A stretch of 64,000 nucleotides of DNA from the NCBI RefSeq assembly GCF_014640255.1, contig NZ_BMGP01000002.1:186001-250000 (forward strand), written 5' to 3'. The position numbers and the translations under genes were made by a program. The DNA is from Subtercola lobariae. GTDB lineage: Bacteria > Actinomycetota > Actinomycetes > Actinomycetales > Microbacteriaceae. How positions within the stretch are numbered: the first letter of the stretch is position 1; each line of letters begins with the position of its first letter. Shown piece by piece: positions 4,523 to 17,090 of the stretch. The notes under the pieces were generated by a model. The model worked only from the letters and a program-made list of their open reading frames with translations. It did not search any database and was not told where the DNA came from.

Positions 4523-5098
4523 ATGCCTGAAGAGCAACGAAAATTCAAAACCATTCTGGCCGATCCCCCATGGGATATTCAGCAGAAGGGTGGCCGTGGG
4601 GCACATGCCCACTACAACGTGCTCAACCTCGACCAGATCAAATCGCTCCCAGTGGGAGATCTCGCCGAAGACGATAGCCACCTGTGGCTCTGGGTCACCA
4701 ATGCCACACTTCGCGCCGGCTACGACGTTATTGAGTCATGGGGGTTTGAGCCGAGATCTCCGTTGACCTGGATCAAGCCTCGGTTCACCCTCGGCATGTA
4801 TTTAAGAAATGCGACCGAGCATCTGCTCTTCGCAACGCGCGGTCGAGCACCCGTCAACTTCCGTTCACAGCCCACCTGGTTTTTCGCACCCCTGCAAGAT
4901 CACTCTCACAAACCTGAGGAACAGTTCGCAATCATCGAGCGCGTCAGTCCAGGGCCCTACCTTGAGCTTTTTGCGAGACGAGAACCGCCATCGCAAGCCG
5001 ACTGGTCGGTATGGGGCGCAGAAGTGAAATCAGACGTCACCGTCCCCGGCTTCCCGGTGCCGTCCGATTACGTACGCGACGAAGGGGCCCACTCATGA
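4523..5098 (+). CDS. MT-A70 family DNA N6-adenine methyltransferase
   Basis: A 191-residue protein starting at ATG 4523 behind a strong AGAGGAGGTGA ribosome site. The catalytic motif DPPW sits at residues 14-17, followed by an HYN.L segment, the LWLWVTNATL strand, an EHLLFATRG strand and a C-terminal PYLELFARR element. This is the order of the MT-A70 family (PF05063), which transfers a methyl group from S-adenosylmethionine to N6 of adenine. No restriction endonuclease is adjacent, so it appears to be an orphan methylase, as is common on phages and mobile elements, where it can protect incoming DNA from host restriction. Confidence 0.9.
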   Translation: MPEEQRKFKTILADPPWDIQQKGGRGAHAHYNVLNLDQIKSLPVGDLAEDDSHLWLWVTNATLRAGYDVIESWGFEPRSPLTWIKPRFTLGMYLRNATEHLLFATRGRAPVNFRSQPTWFFAPLQDHSHKPEEQFAIIERVSPGPYLELFARREPPSQADWSVWGAEVKSDVTVPGFPVPSDYVRDEGAHS

Positions 5099-5502: not shown

Positions 5503-5699
5503 CGAAGAAAAGTTCCAGACAAGAAAGGTCGAGGGCTGATCGCGAAAGTCGCGTCTCTGTTCGCGGGCCGCAAGTTTACGACCGCGCTCGCGCAAGCCAA
5601 GCGTTCCTTGCAGCCCAAGCCGACGCAGAAACAAAGGCTCGAAAAGAACATCTAGAACGCATTGAGCTCGAAAAGGCGCAGTTCGAGGAGTCGGCATGA
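5499..5699 (+). CDS. Small charged coiled-coil protein upstream of the TraG-like ATPase
   Basis: Sixty-six residues, extremely rich in Arg, Lys, Glu, Gln and Ala, predicted to be one long helix (ARASQAFLAAQADAETKARK and onward). Its stop overlaps the start of the ATPase gene by ATGA, so the two are almost certainly translated together. No family was recognised; a small adaptor of the coupling ATPase is the simplest guess. Confidence 0.6.
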   Translation: MTKKSSRQERSRADRESRVSVRGPQVYDRARASQAFLAAQADAETKARKEHLERIELEKAQFEESA

Positions 5700-7879
5700 C
5701 CGTCTCCGAGAACGCGTCGGGAACGGACATGGTGTGGATGCAAATTCACTGGCCGTCTCCGCTCGACGCGACGCTTGCTCGTGAACTTCTTCGACGATTC
5801 GCTTCAGACCAGCACCGTTCGCCAATTACATTCGAAGTTCGTTCTCTCGAGGGACTCATGTCGCACTACGTCGGAACACAGGCGCATCAAGTGAGACAGG
5901 TCGTCGGCGTCATTGAAGGGCTCGTCCCGGGCGCTACCACCAGCGCGGCGGTGTCGTCATCGATGACAGGTCAGTCAGTCCGATTGAAACTCGCTTCGAC
6001 CCATCTCGCACTCAAGACAGATTCGCCAGCGACGTCTGCCCGTGCGATTCTCGGCGCGCTCGCTGAAGCCCGATACCGCGGAGAATCGTCTCGGCTTCAA
6101 GTCGTGCTTGGCCGGACGGTGCACGCTCGGCTCACACCGGCCAAGCTGCCCGATCCCACCCAGCGCTGGTGGGCTCTGCTTTCTCAAGGCTCGGTGCGCG
6201 CGTCGAATGAAGTCGCAGCGAGTATCCGGCAACGACATAGCGAGGTGGGCTGCTTTGTCGTCCTCCGAGCATCGGCATCCGCCAAGTCTGAAGGACGCAG
6301 AACGTCCATCCTTCGTGGCATCATCGCAGCGCTCCGCACTACGCACACTCCGGGTGTTCGGCTCAAGTTCGTGAGGGACGATCTTCCCCCGCGAGACGGG
6401 TCGGCACTTCGCGGCTCGACGCCTCTTGCCACTTCTGAACTTCTCAGCTTGATTGGCTTCCCACTCGACGCCGAGGATCTTCCCGGTATGCCAGATCCGC
6501 ACCCAAAACTGCTTCGCCTCGTCACAAACAGCGTCGATCTGACTCGACTGTTCGGCGTCACGAACGCGCCCGGCACCTCGAAACCTGTCGGCATCGCAAT
6601 CTCAGACGCGCTCTACCATTCGATCATTATTGGACCGACGGGCAGCGGCAAATCGACCCTCATGCTGAACCTCATCGTCGCGGACCTCCGCGCCAAACGC
6701 GGTGTCGTCGTCATCGACCCGAAATCGGATTTGGTGCGCGACATTTTGGAGCGAATTCCCGAGAGCAGGAAAGACGACGTGGTGGTGCTCGACCCCACAC
6801 AGCTGCAACCGGTCGGACTCAACCCCCTCGCGACGCCAGGGACCAGTCCTGAACTGATCGCCGACGCCATTCTTGGTATTTTTCGAGACCTCTTTCCATC
6901 CGCCTTTGGACCGCGCACGAGCGACGTGATGCACGCGTCGCTACTGACGCTCGCCAGCAGTCCCGGCGCGACGCTCACATGGATTCCGCGGCTGCTCACC
7001 GATGCGCGCTTTCGCAAGCAACTCACCGATGCGCTCGATGACCCGGACGGTCTCGAAGCTTTTTGGGAACAGTTCAACGAACTTTCCGAACGTCAGCAAG
7101 CCCAATTCATCGGACCCGTTCTTTCGCGGCTACGCCAGTTCCTCTTGCGGCCCAGTCTCAAGCGGATCCTTGACCAGAGCGTGCCGCGCTTCAGTCTCAG
7201 CCAGGTGCTGGATGAAAACAAGATCTTACTCGTGCCGCTCAACAGCGGCCTCGTCGGCAACGATGCTGCGCGTCTCCTCGGCAGCCTGTTGGTCAGCCAA
7301 CTCTGGCAATTGACGCTCGGCCGTGCGGCTCAGCCGATAGAGAAACGCTCGCCTATCAGCATCTACATCGACGAGGTGCAGGAGTATCTCCGCCTCGGCG
7401 GGGCCGGCGACCTGAACGACGCGCTCGCCCGGAGCCGTTCACTCGGGGTGGCATGGCATGCGGCGCATCAGTACCGAAAGCAGCTGCCTGAGGAAATGAG
7501 ATCCGCCTTCGACGCGAACGCCCGCAACAAGGTGGTCTACGCGACCGGCATCGACGACGCCAAGGCCATGGCTGCCATGACCTCGAACCTGAAGCCGGAA
7601 GATTTCATGAAGCTCACGCCGTTCGCTTTCTACGCGAACCTGATGCGTGAAGGCGAACAAACCGGCTGGTTTTCGGCCCAAGCAGATCCTGCGCCAAGAG
7701 CAACGTCCGACCCCATCGAAATCATGTCCCTGAGCCAGGCGAGATACGGAGCGCAGATCGACCTGCAAGCGACGGCTACTTCAAAAGAGCGGAATGAATC
7801 TCCCTCCGACCCGCGTGCGAAAGACGATCAGTCTCAGCCCACCAACCACACAATCGGGCGCAAGAGGCGAACAATATGA
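5696..7879 (+). CDS. TraG/VirD4-like type IV coupling ATPase
   Basis: A 727-residue P-loop ATPase of the FtsK/HerA/VirD4 group. Walker A GPTGSGKST lies at residues 313-321. It is followed by GVVVIDPKSDLVRDIL, the usual start of the conjugative DNA-transfer ATPase domain, and an IYIDEVQEYL Walker B near 556-565. An SLGVAWHAAHQYRKQLP segment after it is the TraG/TraM-recognition region. The first 300 residues are a family-variable N-terminal domain and the tail is Arg/Lys-rich. Coupling proteins of this kind bring DNA to a transfer channel or pump dsDNA at the membrane. No membrane helix is seen in this protein itself, so the small membrane proteins encoded upstream may anchor it. Confidence 0.85.
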   Translation: MTVSENASGTDMVWMQIHWPSPLDATLARELLRRFASDQHRSPITFEVRSLEGLMSHYVGTQAHQVRQVVGVIEGLVPGATTSAAVSSSMTGQSVRLKLASTHLALKTDSPATSARAILGALAEARYRGESSRLQVVLGRTVHARLTPAKLPDPTQRWWALLSQGSVRASNEVAASIRQRHSEVGCFVVLRASASAKSEGRRTSILRGIIAALRTTHTPGVRLKFVRDDLPPRDGSALRGSTPLATSELLSLIGFPLDAEDLPGMPDPHPKLLRLVTNSVDLTRLFGVTNAPGTSKPVGIAISDALYHSIIIGPTGSGKSTLMLNLIVADLRAKRGVVVIDPKSDLVRDILERIPESRKDDVVVLDPTQLQPVGLNPLATPGTSPELIADAILGIFRDLFPSAFGPRTSDVMHASLLTLASSPGATLTWIPRLLTDARFRKQLTDALDDPDGLEAFWEQFNELSERQQAQFIGPVLSRLRQFLLRPSLKRILDQSVPRFSLSQVLDENKILLVPLNSGLVGNDAARLLGSLLVSQLWQLTLGRAAQPIEKRSPISIYIDEVQEYLRLGGAGDLNDALARSRSLGVAWHAAHQYRKQLPEEMRSAFDANARNKVVYATGIDDAKAMAAMTSNLKPEDFMKLTPFAFYANLMREGEQTGWFSAQADPAPRATSDPIEIMSLSQARYGAQIDLQATATSKERNESPSDPRAKDDQSQPTNHTIGRKRRTI

Positions 7880-8036
7880 CGCCGAATAACAGAGAGGTGA
7901 GGCGTCCGGTCGCCCACCCGGTCGCTCCGACATTGAAACGCCCCCAGCGCCGATATTTCGGCCCCTTTCACCCATTTCGGGAGTCGACTAACACCGAATG
8001 CACGGTGTTACCAAAGCCCAGAGACGGAGGCCGTTG

Positions 8037-8879
8037 ATGTCTCAGCCAAATCGCAAAGGGACCTTGAGCGTTGCGTCGATCAAACTCTTGCTCACAGCTC
8101 GCGATCGCGCCATCTTGCAGTCGTTATACGCTCATAAGTTTCTAACCGGTTCTCAGATCTACAACCTCCACTTCTGGAACCATCACACCTACGCCTCCGG
8201 GATTCGAGCATGCAATCGTGTGCTCGGCAGACTTCGAGGTCATCGGCTGATCTATCGACTCGAGCGACCCATGGGAGGGGTGGGTGGTGGCTCCTCAAGC
8301 TTCGTCTGGAGTCTCGACGCAGCCGGCGACAGATTCGAACGACGGACGCAAGAGGGAGCAACCACCTCGCGCTCCCGTTCCTTCGTTCCGACCACGATGT
8401 TTCTCCTTCATACCCTCGCCGTTGCTGACGTTCACATTCAGCTGATCGAAACCGAACGCTCTGGCCGAATCAAGATCATCGAGTCGCAGTTCGAACCACG
8501 CAACTGGCGGACATTTCTGACTCGGAACGGTTCACAGCGAGTGCTGAAACCCGACCTTTTCGTATCCCTGTCATCAGCGGACTACGACGACTTCTTTTTC
8601 ATCGAGGTGGACCGCGGCACCGAATCCATCCCAACGCTAATCCGAAAATGCCTTTTGTACGAAGCTCATCGACGGTCAGGGGACGAACAAGAGCGCCTCG
8701 AGGTCTATCCGCTGGTCGTATGGCTGGTACCCACAGCAGCGCGTCGAGATCTGCTGCAAAAGAGTATCGACGCCGAAAAGCACCTCGACCCGCAGTTGTT
8801 CTCGATCTGTGTCAGCGACGATTTTCGCGCTTTCATCGATCAACGGAGTGAACCGCAGTCTGGGGGTGACGGTGTTTGA
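8037..8879 (+). CDS. Replication-relaxation family protein
   Basis: The start is ATG 8037, because GACGGAGG lies six bases upstream; an earlier in-frame ATG at 7998 has no such site. The 280-residue product has an N-terminal winged-helix-like part (LTARDRAILQSLYAHKFLTGSQI, split here by a Lys-Phe) and a C-terminal LKPDLFVSL ... FFIEVDRGTES..TL..KC nuclease-like core. This is the signature of the replication-relaxation family (PF13814), found on plasmids and integrative elements of Actinobacteria and Firmicutes near DNA-transfer ATPases. It probably acts in DNA processing for element replication or mobilisation. Confidence 0.8.
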   Translation: MSQPNRKGTLSVASIKLLLTARDRAILQSLYAHKFLTGSQIYNLHFWNHHTYASGIRACNRVLGRLRGHRLIYRLERPMGGVGGGSSSFVWSLDAAGDRFERRTQEGATTSRSRSFVPTTMFLLHTLAVADVHIQLIETERSGRIKIIESQFEPRNWRTFLTRNGSQRVLKPDLFVSLSSADYDDFFFIEVDRGTESIPTLIRKCLLYEAHRRSGDEQERLEVYPLVVWLVPTAARRDLLQKSIDAEKHLDPQLFSICVSDDFRAFIDQRSEPQSGGDGV

Positions 8880-9377: not shown

Positions 9378-10991
9378 ATGAACTCAACTAACCAACACCA
9401 GAATCGGCCGAAGGCAATCTCGTATCTGCGCGTGTCGACGAAAGAGCAAACCGAACGCGATGGCGATCCAGAAGGCTATTCAATTCCAGCTCAACGTGAG
9501 GCGAATCGGAGAAAGGCGGACGTGCTCGGTGCTGAAGTCATCGAGGAGTTCGTCGACCGCGGCGAGTCAGCCAAAACCGCAGACCGCCCAGAGTTGCTCC
9601 GAATGCTGGAGTTTGTGAAGGAGAATCCGGTCGCCTACTGCATCGTCCACAAGGTCGACCGTTTGGCGCGCAACCGAGCCGACGATGTTTCCATCAATAT
9701 CGCCCTCCGCGCATCGCACGTTCAACTCGTGTCAGCCACCGAGAACATCGACGAGACGCCTTCCGGAATGCTGCTTCACGGCATCATGAGCTCCATCTCG
9801 GAGTTCTACTCCGAGAACCTCAAAGCCGAAGTGTTAAAGGGCATGCAGCAGAAGGCGAAGACCGGCGGCACACCAGGTAGAGCGCCAATCGGTTATCGCA
9901 ATGTGGGTGTGTTCAACGCTGAGGGCAGAGAGGTGCGGTCTGTTGTGGTCGATCCGAAGCGCGCACCCCTGATCGCGTGGGCGTTTGAAGCATACGCAAC
10001 CGGAAAGTGGACGATCCGAAATCTGGTCGATGAGCTAGATGATCGTGGGCTCAGCTCACTCCCGACCCCATCTCGCCCGTCAAAGCCGATCACTGCGACC
10101 CAGCTACATAAGATCTTGACGAACCCGTACTACCGGGGCGAGGTTCGATTTCAAGGCGCAAGATTTCCAGGTCGCCATGAGGCAATTGTCGACTCGGTCC
10201 TATGGCTAAAGGTGCAATCGGTGCTTTCAAACCGTGCAACGGGCGAGAAGGAACGAGAGCACAATCACTATTTGAAGAGCACGCTTTTCTGCCGCAAGTG
10301 CGCTTCGCGCATGATCGTTCACCGCACTACCAATCGCCACGGTGCCTTCTACGAATATTTTGTCTGCAGCGGCCGGCACGAGCGGCGAACCGATTGCAAG
10401 ATGCCCGCTGTCGAGATCGGGCTCATCGAGAATCGGATCTTGGACCTCTACCGCGAGGTTCAGATTCCGTCCGAGGAGCGCTCCGGCCTTGAGCTGCAAC
10501 TTCGCGCCGATCTCGCCGTGGGTTCAGAGCGAGCCCAACGAGTACAGCATGACCTGGTTCTTGAACAGGCTCGATTGCAAGCTCGAAGCAAAAAGCTGCT
10601 CGATGGTCACCTTGAGGGAGTTATTCCAATAGACCTCTATGCAATCGAACAGCGCGACATTACCGAGCAACTCGGCTCCATCTCGGAACGGCTCACGGCG
10701 ACCACGATGCAATTGGATGAGCTCGATCGGAAACTTACCGAGGTGCTGGTGCTGACCCAGAATTGCTTCGAGACTTATCTCAGAGCGTCGGACGACGTGC
10801 GCAGAAAACTCAATCAAGCGTTCTTCCCGAAAATCTTCGTCGATTTCGACGGCGACGTCAGTGGGCCACTAGGCGCTCCATTTTCCGCCGTCATCCCTCG
10901 GATCCTCAGATCCGCAAAATCGTCGGATGCTTCAGAAGCAAACGAACACCCAAACCCCTTTTTTAAGGTCGAGTGTTCGAGAGAGTACGAA
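9378..10991 (+). CDS. Large serine recombinase (integrase); no stop codon before the tRNA
   Basis: ATG 9378 has GGAGG five bases upstream. The N-terminal resolvase domain carries SYLRVS with the nucleophile Ser at residue 20, then SIPAQREANRR and KVDRLARNRADD. A recombinase domain follows (GGTPGRAPIGYRNVG; LTNPYYRGEV), then a zinc ribbon with a CRKC pair and a second VCSGRHERRTDC element, and a coiled coil. This is the full order of large serine integrases, which join attP to attB. The frame reaches the 3' end of tRNA-Arg at 10,993 without a stop and remains open to 12,542. The end given here is only the element boundary. The translated protein may therefore be longer, with a tail encoded by the host tRNA region. 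Confidence 0.9.
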
Positions 10992-10992
10992 T

Positions 10993-11067
10993 TGGTGCCC
11001 CTGGAGGGACTCGAACCCCCAACCCTTTCCTTAGGACGGAACTGCTCTTCCATTGAGCTACAGAGGC
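10993..11067 (-). tRNA. tRNA-Arg (anticodon CCT), with encoded CCA
   Basis: The reverse strand folds as a cloverleaf: acceptor GCCTCTG/CAGGGGC, D stem GCTC/GAGC, anticodon loop GTCCTAA giving CCT, T arm GGGGG-TTCGAGT-CCCTC and encoded CCA. One mismatch closes the anticodon stem (27-43). The anticodon CCT reads AGG, arginine. The 3' end abuts the element and serves as its attachment site; the tRNA is whole, so integration restored the 3' end. Confidence 0.92.
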
Positions 11068-11198
11068 TGACCGCACGAGTTTACCAAGAGCAGAGCCGCG
11101 CCCCCGCCACAGCCCCCGCTCAGCATTCCGACAGGTTGACGAAATGCCGCCGCCCCAACCGGGTGACAACCGCACCAGATGTTAGACATGCCAGAGTC

Positions 11199-12542
11199 AT
11201 GACTAGAGCACCCAGTTTGAAGCGCGGCCGACCTTCCCGATTCCGGATGCTCGGGGTCGGCCTTCTGGCGAGCGCCCTCGTCGCCGCGAGCGCGGTTCTC
11301 GGCGCCCCCGCCGCCTACGCCGACGACTACCCGAGCTGGGCCGACGTGCAGGCCGCTCAGGGCAACGAGAACGCCAAGGCTGCCGAGATCACGACCATCA
11401 ACAACATCATCAGCGACCTGCAGGCCAAGGTCGTGGCCGCGCAGCAGCTGGTCGCGCAGCGCACCTCAGAAGACGACGCCGCAGAGGCCGCCCTCGCCGC
11501 GGGGCAGAGCAAGGCCGACTCGCTCGCCGCGAGTGCCGCTACCTGGAAGACGAAGGCCGACACCTCGAGCCGCCAGGCCGCCCTCATCGCCGCACAGCTC
11601 GCGCGTTCGGGCGGCGGCAACAACATCACCAGCTTGTTGCTCGGCGGTAGCTCCGAACAGCAGACCGACCTGCTCTCTCAACTCAGCGCCATGGGCAAAC
11701 TCACCCAGACCGTCACCGAGATCTACAATCAGGCCAAGCAAGACAGCAACACCGCAGCATCCATCAGCGAACAGGCTCAGGTGGCGAAGGATGCTCTTGC
11801 CGGCCTCGCAGCGGCCGCTCAGGCCGCGCTGCAGGCCGCCGCACAGGCTCAGCAAGACATGATCGCCGCTCTGAACGAGCAAACCGCTCACCAAGAAGAA
11901 CTTCAAGCGCAGCTGGTTTCGCTGCAGCAGAACCTCGCCACGACTCAGCAGCAGTACCAGGCCGGCGTCGCCGCGCGTGCAGCTGCGGCAGCCGCGGCGG
12001 CAGCAGCTGCAGCGGCCGCCGCTCGAGGAGGCGGCGCCGTGAGCGTCGGCCCCGTCTCTTCTGACGCACAGGCCTTGGCAGAAGAGCTCATGGGTGACGT
12101 GGCCGACGGCAACTTCCACGGCTCGACCCCCGACCACATCATGGAGATCGCCTGGATCGCGCAGGGCAAGTCGGTGCAGAACTGTGGCATCGACGTGGTC
12201 ATTCTGCAGGCGATGGTCACCGCCGTGCGCGCTTTCGGCAGCGCAGGCGTGAGCGACATCAACCGTCGCTGCACCGGTCAGATCGAGGGTGCCGGCATCT
12301 ACTCGAACCATTACAAGAACGGCGGCGGTCACGCCGTCGACTTCACGTCAGTTGGCGGCATGGTGCTGAACGGCTCTAACAACGCCTCGATCGCTCTGAT
12401 CAGAACGCTCGACCCGATCATGCCGTACGGCTCCGGCCTCGGGCAGAGCGAATGCCGCGCCTCAGCCGGTACCTCCATCAGCACGAAGAACTTCTCGGGA
12501 TTCTCTGACACCTGCGACCATCTGCACATCGACGACTTCTAG
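11199..12542 (+). CDS. Secreted coiled-coil protein with M15-like (HxH) C-terminal domain
   Basis: From ATG 11199 the 447-residue product has a basic N-terminus, a hydrophobic signal segment and an APAAYADDYPSW cleavage region. A long Ala/Gln-rich coiled coil follows, as in RipA-type and PcsB-type cell-wall proteins, then a poly-Ala run. The C-terminal domain has NHYKNGGGHAVDF and CDHLHIDDF, the spaced His/Asp/HxH pattern of M15/VanY-like zinc peptidases. A role in peptidoglycan remodelling is likely. The domain is shared with the protein at 15026-15871. No stop separates this frame from the upstream recombinase; the start is chosen from the signal peptide. Confidence 0.75.
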   Translation: MTRAPSLKRGRPSRFRMLGVGLLASALVAASAVLGAPAAYADDYPSWADVQAAQGNENAKAAEITTINNIISDLQAKVVAAQQLVAQRTSEDDAAEAALAAGQSKADSLAASAATWKTKADTSSRQAALIAAQLARSGGGNNITSLLLGGSSEQQTDLLSQLSAMGKLTQTVTEIYNQAKQDSNTAASISEQAQVAKDALAGLAAAAQAALQAAAQAQQDMIAALNEQTAHQEELQAQLVSLQQNLATTQQQYQAGVAARAAAAAAAAAAAAAAARGGGAVSVGPVSSDAQALAEELMGDVADGNFHGSTPDHIMEIAWIAQGKSVQNCGIDVVILQAMVTAVRAFGSAGVSDINRRCTGQIEGAGIYSNHYKNGGGHAVDFTSVGGMVLNGSNNASIALIRTLDPIMPYGSGLGQSECRASAGTSISTKNFSGFSDTCDHLHIDDF

Positions 12543-12741: not shown

Positions 12742-14124
12742 ATGCAGACCACGATTCGCCGCACTCCGCGCCTGAGCGCCCGGCTGCGCGTCGCCATCAT
12801 CGCCGTCACCATCACTTCTCTCGCCGTTTCGGCCGCCATCACCGGCGGCAGCCCCGCGTACGCCACCAACTACCCGAGCTGGAACGACGTCATCGCCGCC
12901 AGAAGCAATGCCGCTTCGACGCAAGACGAAATGAACCAGCTGCAGTCGCTCATCTCCGGTTTGCAGGCCGAGGTCGATGCGGCTCAGGCAGCCGCCGACC
13001 AGGCGTGGGCGGCGAATCAAGCAGCTCAGGATGCCCTGAGTGCAGGCAAGGCGAAGGCTGATCAATTGCGGCAGCAGGCTACCGCCGCCCAGACGAAGGC
13101 CGACGCGTCACGTAAGCAGGCGACCGCACTCACCGCGCAGTTCGCACGATCGGCAGGCGGCGGAGACCTCTCCATGCAGCTGATGATCGGCGGCGACAAG
13201 AGCAACGACCTACTCTATCAGCTCAGCGCCATGAGCAAGCTCAGCGAAACGTCGAAGGGCATCTTCACTCAGGCCACGCAAGACGCGAACGACGCGACAT
13301 CGCTGAGCGCACAGGCCGACACGGCCGAAGCCGCGCTCAGCACGCTCGCTGCCGCCTCGCAGGCCTCCCTGAACGACGCGGTCTCTGCACAGCAGCAACT
13401 GAAGTCTGCCCTGCTCGAGCAAGACAGTCACCAAGCCGAACTCACCGTTCAGCTTGACGCCCTCACCAACACGGCAATCACCACCGAAGCCGACTACAAC
13501 GCCGGCGTCGCGGCCGAGCAGCAGCGCCAGCTCGAGGCCGAGCAGGCCGCTGCGGCACAGGCTGCCGCCGCACAAGCCGCTGCCGCCGCTGCCGCCGCGG
13601 CGAATCCGGGCAGCTCGAACTCCGGGTCGTCGAACTCGGGGTCGTCGAACTCCAACTCAGGTTCGAGTAACTCTGGCTCGTCGGGCAACTCCGGCAGTTC
13701 ATCCGGTAGCTCAGGCGGCTCGTCGAACGGCAACTCAGGCGGTGGCTCGTCAGCACCCGTGAACGACGCCCCCACCCAGGCCTTCGACGGCAACGCCGTT
13801 GTCGCCTACGCCGAGCAGTACGTGGGCGTGGTTCCCTACAGCGCCGGCAACACGCCGAGCGAAGGCTTCGGCTGCGACGGATTCACGCAGTGGGTCTACG
13901 GGCACTTCGGCATCTCGTTGCCGCGGCTGGTGAGCCGCCAGACCGCCATGGGCATTCGCGTTTCGTCGTCAGAGGTGCGCGCGGGCGATCTCGTGGTGTG
14001 GCCGAACACGCACATCGGCATCTACGACGGTCACGGCGGGGTCATCCACTCCCCCGACTGGGGCCGCTATGTGACCCACAACCCCGGGCTCTGGGGCAGC
14101 TACATCTTTATTCGCATCGTCTAG
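12742..14124 (+). CDS. Secreted NlpC/P60 peptidoglycan endopeptidase
   Basis: The 460-residue product has a signal peptide ending near SPAYATNYPSW and an Ala/Gln-rich coiled coil. A low-complexity Gly/Ser/Asn linker (repeats of GSSNS) follows, then a C-terminal NlpC/P60 domain. The catalytic Cys is residue 378 in GFGCDGFTQWV and the His is residue 424 in NTHIGIYDG, with an HSPDWGRYV segment after it. Such enzymes cut D-Glu-mDAP or related peptide bonds and are needed for daughter-cell separation. The coiled coil is paralogous to that of the upstream gene at 11199, and the pair are probably co-functional. The stop is shared base for base (CTAG) with the convergent HNH gene. Confidence 0.9.
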   Translation: MQTTIRRTPRLSARLRVAIIAVTITSLAVSAAITGGSPAYATNYPSWNDVIAARSNAASTQDEMNQLQSLISGLQAEVDAAQAAADQAWAANQAAQDALSAGKAKADQLRQQATAAQTKADASRKQATALTAQFARSAGGGDLSMQLMIGGDKSNDLLYQLSAMSKLSETSKGIFTQATQDANDATSLSAQADTAEAALSTLAAASQASLNDAVSAQQQLKSALLEQDSHQAELTVQLDALTNTAITTEADYNAGVAAEQQRQLEAEQAAAAQAAAAQAAAAAAAAANPGSSNSGSSNSGSSNSNSGSSNSGSSGNSGSSSGSSGGSSNGNSGGGSSAPVNDAPTQAFDGNAVVAYAEQYVGVVPYSAGNTPSEGFGCDGFTQWVYGHFGISLPRLVSRQTAMGIRVSSSEVRAGDLVVWPNTHIGIYDGHGGVIHSPDWGRYVTHNPGLWGSYIFIRIV

Positions 14125-15025: not shown

Positions 15026-15871
15026 CTACGATTCGGGCAGCAGCGACGCGCCCCGTGCGGTGATGAAGTCGATGTGCAGATGCGTACACGAGTCGTTGAA
15101 CTCCGAGAGGTTCACAAAGCCCGAACCGGATGCCCGGCACTCGCTCTGGCCGACGTCAGAGTTCGGCGGAACCAGCGGGTCGAGCACCCGCAGCAACTTC
15201 ATCGAATCAGAATCTCCGCCAGTAAGACTGTGCCCGTTGAGAATGTAGAAGTCGACCGCGTGACCACCGCCATTGCGGTTGTGTGGCGAAATACTGCCCG
15301 CCCCTTCGACCTGGCCGGTGCAGAGCCGGTTGATGTCGCTCACCCCGACCTTGCCGAAGTTGTCGACTGCCACCTTGATGGTTTGCAGCACGCGATAATC
15401 CACACCGCAGTTCGGCACCACCTGGCCATTTGCCAGGTACTGAATCTCTTTGATGTGGTCGGGGTGCGAGCCGACGAGCTTGCCAGAGGCCACGGCATCC
15501 ATCAGCTGTTGCGCAAGCGCCTGAACTTCGGGCGGCACCACCGAGGGGTACGCGTTTGCTGTCACCGCGCTGTTCGACGAGAGCTTGAGCGCTGCGGCCT
15601 GAGCTGCGGCCGCGGCAGCTGCGGCCTCCGCGGCCTGCTGCGCTTGCAGTTCAGCCTGGCTCGGCGCCTCATAGTTATCGCGGGCGACCACCATAGGCCC
15701 TTGCTGTTGGTCACTCGCGAGCGACTGCGATTCTGTGAGCGAACTCGACGTGACCGGGTCGAACGCGCCGTCAACGCTGAACGCGTAGGCCGGAATCGCC
15801 ATGGTAGCAATGAGGCCCACGGCAGCAGTCATGACCAGCACGCTCGCAACGCGGCGGGTCGGCGCTTTCAC
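15026..15871 (-). CDS. Secreted M15-like (HxH) domain protein
   Basis: The 281-residue product has a signal/anchor segment (VLVMTAAVGLIATMAIPAYA), a short linker with poly-Ala, and the same C-terminal domain as the 11199 gene. Shared elements include NCGVDYRVLQTI, VSDINRLCTGQVEGAG, HNRNGGGHAVDF and CTHLHIDF. The spaced His, Asp and HxH suggest a zinc-dependent peptidoglycan peptidase of M15 type; the paired cysteines suggest disulfides outside the cell. It lies 60 bp after the NlpC/P60 gene on the same strand, so the pair repeats in mirror image the arrangement at 11199-14124. Confidence 0.75.
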   Translation of the reverse strand: MKAPTRRVASVLVMTAAVGLIATMAIPAYAFSVDGAFDPVTSSSLTESQSLASDQQQGPMVVARDNYEAPSQAELQAQQAAEAAAAAAAAQAAALKLSSNSAVTANAYPSVVPPEVQALAQQLMDAVASGKLVGSHPDHIKEIQYLANGQVVPNCGVDYRVLQTIKVAVDNFGKVGVSDINRLCTGQVEGAGSISPHNRNGGGHAVDFYILNGHSLTGGDSDSMKLLRVLDPLVPPNSDVGQSECRASGSGFVNLSEFNDSCTHLHIDFITARGASLLPES

Positions 15872-15931: not shown

Positions 15932-16876
15932 CTAGCTGTTCGGGTAGTACCGCACGAAGTAGTAGCTGCCCCAAACCGGGTCGTACTCAACCATGCGACC
16001 CCAGTCGGGCGCCGTGATGGCTTTCCCACCGCCAGCGTAGATCTCAGTGTGGCCGATCGGATAGATCATCACATCACCCGGTTGCGCCTCGGAGGCTGGG
16101 ATTCGAACCCCCAAGGCCGCCTGGTTACTGACTGTACGCGGAAGATTTACACCGAAATGTTTGAAGACCCACTGAACAAGTCCATCGCAACTGAAGCTTG
16201 TGTCTGGGGTATTGCCATTGCCATACGGCACTTTTCCGACGTACTGCATGGCGTAGTCAACGACGGCCTGCCCATCGTAGGGTGCTGTGGGGGCGTTATC
16301 GTCGACGGCCAGCGACGCGCCGCTCGACGCCGCCGATGTTACCGCCGTCACTTTCAAAGCTGCTGCCTGCGCTGCTGCAGTCGCTGCATCGGCCGCGGCC
16401 TTGGCCTGCGTGGCAGCCAATTCGTCTTTGGTGGGCGCCTGGTAGTTGTCGCGGCCCACCGTGGGCGCCGCGCCGGCCTCGACGGCCAGCGTCTGCTGGC
16501 CCGAGGTGATCGACTGAGTGGATGCGCTCGGGTCGAATGCCCCATTCGTCGAGAAAGCGTAGGCGGGCAGAGCCATGGTCGCCACCAGAGCAGCAGCGGC
16601 GGTCATCACGACCGTGCTGATGATTCCGCGTTTCGTGGGGCGACGCGAGCGCTTCGGCGCCGCGGCGGCGGCCGGCCGGGGAGCAGCGGTCTTCGCCACT
16701 GGATTGGGCTTCACCACGGCGACAGCGGTCGAAGTAGCGGCCTGTGGGCGGGCCGACGCGGCCTGTGCCTCGCGAAGCGAGCGCCGGGTGGGCTGCAATT
16801 CGGTACTGGGCTGAGCTGGGGTTTTCGGGTTGTGCTTCGACTCGGGTGAGCCTAGCGATTCGCTCGAAAAGGGCAA
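15932..16876 (-). CDS. NlpC/P60 family secreted or membrane-anchored endopeptidase
   Basis: The start is taken at TTG 16876, because GGAGGA lies seven bases upstream; a GTG at 16894 would place that site inside the gene. About 70 cytoplasmic residues rich in Pro, Ala, Arg and Lys precede a hydrophobic segment (STVVMTAAAALVATMALPAY). Then come a linker and an NlpC/P60 domain with SFSCDGLVQWVFKHFG (catalytic Cys), an IGHTEIYAGG stretch (His) and APDWGRMV. The long N-terminus suggests membrane anchoring rather than simple secretion. The gene is first of a two-gene operon with the M15-like gene. Its leader (16877-17090) contains the inverted repeat GGCCAG-AAA-CTGGCC at 16995-17009. Confidence 0.85.
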   Translation of the reverse strand: MPFSSESLGSPESKHNPKTPAQPSTELQPTRRSLREAQAASARPQAATSTAVAVVKPNPVAKTAAPRPAAAAAPKRSRRPTKRGIISTVVMTAAAALVATMALPAYAFSTNGAFDPSASTQSITSGQQTLAVEAGAAPTVGRDNYQAPTKDELAATQAKAAADAATAAAQAAALKVTAVTSAASSGASLAVDDNAPTAPYDGQAVVDYAMQYVGKVPYGNGNTPDTSFSCDGLVQWVFKHFGVNLPRTVSNQAALGVRIPASEAQPGDVMIYPIGHTEIYAGGGKAITAPDWGRMVEYDPVWGSYYFVRYYPNS

Positions 16877-17090
16877 AATGTATTCCTCCGGCACGTGTGC
16901 GGCAACGTGCGTGCCACCCCGCCTGACACTGCCGCGCTGGGTAAGAGCGCGAAAACGTCAGGCGAGTTCTTCGGTGTCTTGATCTGGGTCGTGTGGCCAG
17001 TTTCTGGCCGGTCGGACTTGTTCGAGGATACGGGAGGCATCGTCATTTGTCACCCTGAAACGGCCCTTTGCAACAAATTGGTAACGAACG

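Follow-up and report, generated by a model that had tools for sequence, protein, structure and literature searches.

A tRNA-targeting large serine recombinase of Subtercola lobariae with a putative attP inside its own gene and a helix-turn-helix tail predicted to be split off on integration

Archaeal suicidal integrases carry attP within the integrase gene, and integration splits that gene; a 2021 review states, in the excerpt that treats these enzymes, that recombinases disrupting their own genes are exclusive to archaea (PMC8371274). In the integration-dependent immunity of mycobacteriophages, attP lies instead in the repressor gene, and some of the attB sites overlap tRNA 3′ ends (PMC8092301, in excerpt). 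For large serine recombinases (LSRs), the excerpted literature describes integration into tRNA genes as rare (PMC3218068), places the zinc-ribbon motif of attB 5 bp closer to the centre than that of attP (PMC3783163), and reports that C-terminal fusion changes the direction of the enzyme in engineered LSR-RDF proteins (PMC5737554). In a search of the open-access literature we came across no LSR reported to carry attP within its own coding sequence.

The locus examined here lies in a stretch of 64,000 nucleotides from Subtercola lobariae (NZ_BMGP01000002.1, positions 186,001 to 250,000), referred to as the window. The original prediction held that a single frame runs without a stop from the recombinase start at 9378, across the antisense strand of a tRNA-Arg(CCT) gene, to 12542. 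Translation of window:9378-12542:+ bore this out, giving 1054 residues with a single stop, at the terminus, and ARAGORN identified the tRNA. The ORF opens at GTG 9195 in the program-made listing, and by eye the ATG at 9378 is preceded by GGAGG. Pfam detected Resolvase, Recombinase and Zn_ribbon_recom domains, in that order and above cut-off, within 9378-10976, and the LSR core is also matched by PHROG 95 integrase and by protein alignment. The features of the locus are collected in Table 1, in which attachment-site positions are given as an index (idx) that starts with the CCA end of the tRNA, its first base on the antisense strand being idx 0 (window 10993).

Table 1. Coordinates of features at the recombinase locus, numbered by window position
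Feature	Position	Strand	Basis or remark
T4SS coupling-protein-like ATPase, element gene	5696..7879	+	Pfam PF02534, DUF87
Replic_Relax (replication-relaxation) protein, element gene	7998..8879	+	Pfam PF13814, E=4e-42
Large serine recombinase core	9378..10997	+	540 codons including GTG at att core; PF00239, PF07508, PF13408
Proposed P arm of attP (GTTCGAG...)	10975..10992	+	Fixed 18 nt from tRNA 3′ end
tRNA-Arg(CCT), attB target	10993..11067	-	ARAGORN; all but CCA end taken as chromosomal
att core GGTGCCCCT	10994..11002	+	Common to attR and proposed attL at G000:C2:125,779 (outside window)
Integrated-state LSR tail	10998..11067	+	Antisense-tRNA codons (PLEGLEPPTLSLGRNCSSIELQR...); translation
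Antisense T-loop CTCGAAC, proposed B′ arm	11010..11016	+	idx 17-23; 5 bp nearer centre than P arms
Spacer, fortuitously open in LSR frame	11068..11198	+	Null model, same-genus comparison
Secreted coiled-coil cell-wall-type host gene	11199..12542	+	Outside element

The element forms an island of ∼71 kb, the left end of which falls outside the window. The position assigned to this end, G000:C2:125,779, coincides with a drop in GC content, lies ∼4 kb from the end of synteny with relatives, and carries an orphan helix-turn-helix (HTH) ORF. When the two ends were rejoined in silico, the crossover fell within one ORF of 683 aa, in which the LSR (540 aa) is followed by an HTH tail of ∼143 aa with two HTH-like segments; in the attP rebuilt in this way the integrase frame has no stop at the junction and continues into the tail. 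We propose that attP lies inside the integrase gene, that the circular element would encode LSR and HTH as a single ORF, and that integration would split off the HTH, a tRNA-derived tail taking its place. Frame agreement in rebuilt circles, together with natural fusions, is what places attP within the gene, and we assign this reading a probability of about 0.78.

With the pairs taken as non-independent trials, since frame agreement is inherited among relatives, and with tail queries drawn partly from rebuilt frames, LSR and HTH frames agreed in 18/19 Microbacteriaceae pairs (23 pairs, four of them dropped for absence of a tRNA), in 25/28 named-genome pairs (same contig not required; one natural fusion and one pair lacking a tRNA excluded), and in 10/12 same-contig pairs (contigs matched by their length). 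Scoring of the Microbacteriaceae and named-genome circles made use of arm or position, and the same-contig pairs were scored without frame or position; two of the latter (G444, G406) also occur among the named-genome pairs with other HTH loci. Choosing the core more strictly, by exact match length alone, lowered the agreement to 15/19, 21/28 and 9/12 (2, 5 and 1 out of frame, and 2 tied in each set), which remains far above the chance value of 1/3. Rebuilt lengths fell between 664 and 720 aa in 17/19, 23/28 and 7/12 cases, and in all three rebuilt phase-2 elements (G057, G061 and G130) the core is read in phase 2 on both sides. Among the discordant cases, G083 was out of frame in every rebuild; among the named-genome pairs, G424, G427 and G432 were out of frame, and G446 was in phase but its rebuilt ORF ends at 538 aa. 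In the same-contig analysis, G130 came into frame when its core was re-placed, and G411 and G400 were out of frame with the top core candidate and in frame with the second.

Uninterrupted, in-frame LSR-HTH genes also occur without any rebuilding in four deposited genomes, namely those of Gulosibacter chungangensis (L191 and L272, with the tail directly after the LSR), Propionicicella superfundia (L279), Sediminivirga luteola (L337), and Kibdelosporangium aridum (L177, with one recognised HTH only). A Propionicimonas MAG (L211) carries an LSR-HTH fusion with a frameshift within the HTH. Structure prediction for the Gulosibacter fusion, from an alignment of 27 rows, gave a model (mean pLDDT 75, pTM 0.38) in which a linker of low confidence is followed by helices compatible with two HTHs; in the same genome a second LSR of this clade lies ∼42 kb further on, against a tRNA-Lys, so that the two form a tandem array. 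Phage records yielded no full-length fusion, none of them covering 80% or more of LSR-HTH. As far as comparison of deposited genomes can establish it, the joining of LSR and HTH in one frame is demonstrated for most of the rebuilt circles and for the natural fusions.

The same observations bear on the alternative that survives best, in which LSR and HTH are separate genes lying side by side. On this view the HTH would be translated from a start of its own, such as the GTG of the core, and the continuity of the frame across the core would be incidental. The HTH is a separate ORF in the integrated state, for which either this GTG or an in-frame ATG beside it could serve as the start. However, this alternative is at odds with the frame agreement in all three sets, under the stricter choice of core as well, with the narrow range of rebuilt lengths, with phases matched on both sides of the core in the phase-2 elements, and with the four deposited fusions, and we regard it as unlikely.

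The attachment sites have a recurrent geometry. At the right end, GTT occupies idx -18 to -16 in 93/97 aligned sequences. Based on the 5-bp rule (PMC3783163, in excerpt) and the position of the T-loop, a second P arm would be expected to end near idx 28, and AAC was found at idx 26-28 in 33/41 distinct left ends, for which the position of the core was taken solely from aligning the HTH ORF as protein. GTT at -18 and AAC at 26-28 together give an attP centred on idx 5. The arms so predicted show the 5-bp offset between attP and attB motifs of LSRs, with the T-loop as the putative attB arm, and the arm positions themselves we take as established. The crossover is predicted to lie in or beside the GTG of the att core.

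Left ends were sought in several ways. A scan for the core with a mirrored arm, covering 75.7 kb to the left of the window LSR, gave one match (0.4 expected), at G000:C2:125,779; over 15 stretches, the left end that was later supported was matched in two (G000 and G242), the other matches falling elsewhere, and on its own such a scan is weak evidence for a left end. Candidate attL sites were ranked on core and arm before any HTH search, and the HTH ORF starts were located later. A ranked candidate coincided with the HTH ORF start in five of the ten elements with an HTH inside the scanned stretch (top-ranked in G000, G242, G391 and G171, second-ranked in G234), and the top candidates missed it in G347, G385, G198, G008 and G230. 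Searches for long repeats found none at the left end of the element, as expected given that the core of a serine integrase is short. An empty site was sought for the window element, G171, G347 and G385, and none was found. A match at C6:349,589 was rejected as an attachment site as it lies inside a coding region. We also rejected a left end of G347 at a 13-bp repeat at 870,991, where a stop follows the core; the HTH search places this end at ∼866,995, with the circle open. By eye, the DNA just before the left end of G347 resembles an LSR P arm and C-terminus, and tblastn found no LSR there; the site looks like an old tandem junction.

The HTH tail is widespread among genomes with this type of LSR. 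With a single-sequence query (E<=1e-6) it was found in 39/66 LSR-bearing family genomes, where the matches are mostly orphan ORFs of 150-300 aa, many of them upstream of the LSR on the same strand and some elsewhere. A profile search recovered it in 49/49 searched LSR-bearing named genomes, drawn from 50 of the best 80 loci, as compared with 12/66 LSR-negative family genomes. The tail is under purifying selection: among 38 tails compared in 134 non-independent pairs, pN/pS had a median of 0.28 and a maximum of 0.53. NCBIfam holds no specific family for it.

The LSR belongs to an actinobacterial clade. Relatives of it were found by protein search (E<=1e-30) in 66 of 398 genomes of the family Microbacteriaceae, and the named-genome set comprises the best 80 of at least 581 relatives. 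We examined 30 loci of the family set and all 80 of the named-genome set, at least three being common to both. An antisense tRNA or tmRNA lies at the 3′ end of the LSR, within 900 nt of the match, at 27/30 and 70/80 loci; of the loci that lack one, 1 of 3 and 4 of 10 end no more than 300 nt from the LSR match. The targets in the clade are Ala, Arg, Val, Lys, His, Leu and Pro tRNAs and one tmRNA. Of 16 viral loci, 13 were examined; twelve have no antisense tRNA and one has no LSR match, no usable attP form was obtained, and a search for the tail at these loci gave no confirmed case. Plasmids yielded only LSRs of <60% identity.

Entry of the LSR frame into the tRNA, seen at 26/27 and 70/70 tRNA-flanked loci, is a feature of the clade and unlike chance. 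The frame ends inside the tRNA at 9 of 27 and 44 of 70 loci, past it at 15 of 27 and 25 of 70, and is open to the end of the locus at two and one, respectively; at one of the 27 a stop precedes the core. These figures bear on the possibility that selection maintains the tRNA-derived tail as a functional C-terminus for the LSR in its integrated state. That all 70 tRNA-flanked loci of the named-genome set use a single frame (frame A, read as GFEP/GLEP) would fit such selection, but frame A is used at 20 of the 27 family loci, frame B at six and frame C at one; moreover, the tail after the core varies across the clade from 1 to 379 aa, where it is not open to the locus end, its residues are set by whichever tRNA is hit, and the frame would already be fixed if LSR-HTH is one ORF. 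We consider a selected tail improbable.

We also considered the element as the donor of the 3′ part of the tRNA. This was rejected on the grounds that the same variant is present in LSR-free genomes of the family, and it is further disfavoured by the proposed crossover, which precedes the tRNA body. The window tRNA differs from those of same-genus relatives at five bases.

Beyond the tRNA, the 131-nt spacer is open with P=0.40 under a first-order Markov model, or 0.13 after multiplication by 1/3 for a matching phase. Eleven same-genus relatives were searched; G009 was excluded, and the other ten retain the gene and the DNA around it well enough for comparison. The frame reaches the cell-wall gene in 0/10; nine have a TAA within their tRNA variant that terminates it, and in the remaining relative (L016) the 3′ half of the tRNA is replaced and the cell-wall gene is out of frame. 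In same-genus relatives where this LSR was not found at the tRNA, the cell-wall gene adjoins the tRNA all the same. Given this probability and the 0/10 relatives, the run from the tRNA into the cell-wall gene is compatible with chance and unconserved, and this far half of the observation is ordinary. A functional fusion of the LSR frame with the cell-wall gene, for which the frame open to 12542 in this S. lobariae strain would speak, is therefore very improbable. The original prediction had named two possible consequences, a recombinase C-terminus differing before and after integration, as a built-in state sensor, or transcription from the element into the cell-wall gene. Neither such transcription nor a meaningful fusion to that gene finds support in the chance-compatible spacer, the ten relatives or the tail lengths, whereas a recombinase C-terminus that differs before and after integration is supported by the in silico circle and the natural fusions. 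An origin of the whole frame by chance or through a sequencing error is very improbable, since chance could account for the part after the tRNA but is contradicted for the tRNA part by the same entry at nearly every tRNA-flanked locus.

Returning to the single ORF divided by integration, the following course of events can be envisaged. In the circular form, one ORF would encode a complete LSR followed by a C-terminal domain with two HTH segments, and the crossover would take place near a GTG codon at their boundary. When the circle recombines with a tRNA gene at its acceptor end, the LSR part would come to lie against the antisense tRNA and acquire a tail that is not under selection, encoded by the tRNA and here extended by chance DNA and the neighbouring gene; the HTH part would be stranded at the opposite end of the element, as an orphan ORF. 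The T-loop of the tRNA may be read by the enzyme as the B′ arm, which would permit many tRNA targets. As LSR-HTH would be encoded by the circle only, it is presumably the integration-proficient form, and from the presumed tailless state of the resident enzyme we infer an effect of the tail on binding, synapsis, direction or expression. Loss of the HTH may then alter activity or direction and act as an integration-coupled switch. We suggest tentatively, and at somewhat less than even odds, that LSR-HTH made from the circle integrates, that the resident tailless LSR differs in direction or activity, that the stranded HTH is a separate DNA-binding regulator at attL, and that the whole represents a widespread bacterial class. 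The before-and-after switch looks like one common to many actinobacteria.

If this architecture holds, a clade of bacterial serine integrases performs a milder self-splitting in which only the HTH tail is lost, and the att site doubles as a protein-domain junction, with directionality written in the DNA state of the gene. Recombinase frames ending in GFEPLT- or GLEPPT-like residues would be explained as products of the integrated state, and use of the T-loop suggests how one LSR can target many tRNAs. For engineering, such enzymes would offer a natural directionality switch and tRNA-targeting integrases. The statement that self-disrupting recombinases are confined to archaea, as worded in the excerpt of PMC8371274, would be challenged.

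Actinomycete ICEs (AICEs) combine integrase, replication and transfer genes; at the present locus, a Replic_Relax gene and a T4SS coupling-like gene lie close to the LSR. Serine integrases at tRNA genes are likewise known from phiRSM1 (tRNA-Ser) and Mycobacterium AICEs (tRNA-Leu), for which the excerpt of PMC3218068 describes neither an HTH tail nor gene splitting; here the targets are many tRNAs and one tmRNA. The engineered LSR-RDF proteins (PMC5737554, in excerpt) are artificial and have an RDF as partner, whereas the tail described here is a natural HTH that integration would remove. In the integration-dependent immunity of M. abscessus prophages (PMC8092301, in excerpt) and of BPs-like phages, integration similarly changes the C-terminus of the protein whose gene contains attP, but the gene split is that of a repressor and the integrase is of the tyrosine type; here the gene containing the putative attP is the integrase itself. 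The archaeal suicidal integrases of the SSV1, pTN3 and pT26-2 types (PMC8371274, in excerpt) share with this LSR an attP inside the integrase ORF, seen here in the in silico circles and natural fusions, and a gene split on integration. They differ in being tyrosine recombinases with split halves described as inactive, whereas the bacterial enzyme has serine recombinase domains, all those recognised lying on one side of the core, and would lose the C-terminal HTH tail alone. Given this difference in recombinase type, we set LSR-HTH apart from the archaeal family and regard it as a separate, putative form of self-splitting integrase.

In two different genera, Subtercola lobariae and G171, the attL flanks (loci L253 and L256) share 31 bp at 84% directly left of the att core, the short GTG-containing sequence common to both ends of the element. 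This common flank carries an in-frame ATG shortly 5' of the core GTG, and could reflect a B-arm preference or provide a start codon for the orphan helix-turn-helix (HTH) part.

The sole persistent exception to the agreement of the large serine recombinase (LSR) and HTH frames in the rebuilt circle is locus L254 of genome G083. By eye, a sense-strand tRNA-Pro-like 3' fragment lies upstream of the HTH ORF there, an arrangement suggestive of insertion in the reverse direction or of a rearranged locus.

In Kibdelosporangium aridum (L177), two LSRs of the clade follow in succession; the first carries a fused HTH tail and the second lies against tRNA-Ala(CGC). At L259 of genome G347, residues resembling an LSR C-terminus and a P-arm-like stretch are found in frame before the HTH, and 13 bp of the tRNA 3' end are repeated 4 kb further out; this locus is likely a decayed tandem array.

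In the window, secreted cell-wall-type genes are clustered on both strands, one member having an NlpC/P60 domain, and a similar C-terminal segment is common to 11199-12542 and 15026-15871 (by eye and DNA match).

Coordinates of genes and loci discussed in the text
Feature	Location	Remark
MT-A70-family methyltransferase gene	window 4523-5098	within island
tRNA-Arg(CCT)	window 10993-11067
Secreted cell-wall-type gene	window 11199-12542 (+)
Secreted cell-wall-type gene	window 12742-14124
Secreted cell-wall-type gene	window 15026-15871
Secreted cell-wall-type gene	window 15932-16894
tRNA-Arg of relative G011	G011:C19:39498-39574	intact copy
L259	G347:C3:866,000-872,000

In one same-genus relative, the tRNA-Arg adjoining the cell-wall gene (L016, G011:C37) retains its 5' half only, the sequence being unrelated from the anticodon loop onward, and an intact copy is present on a separate contig. 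The truncated copy possibly records a different integration, with crossover in the anticodon loop. Compared with its counterparts in the genus, the window tRNA-Arg(CCT) has five base differences, which fall in the anticodon stem and the variable loop; counterparts whose CCA end also differs show five more. Its sequence nevertheless matches a variant that is common in other parts of the family.
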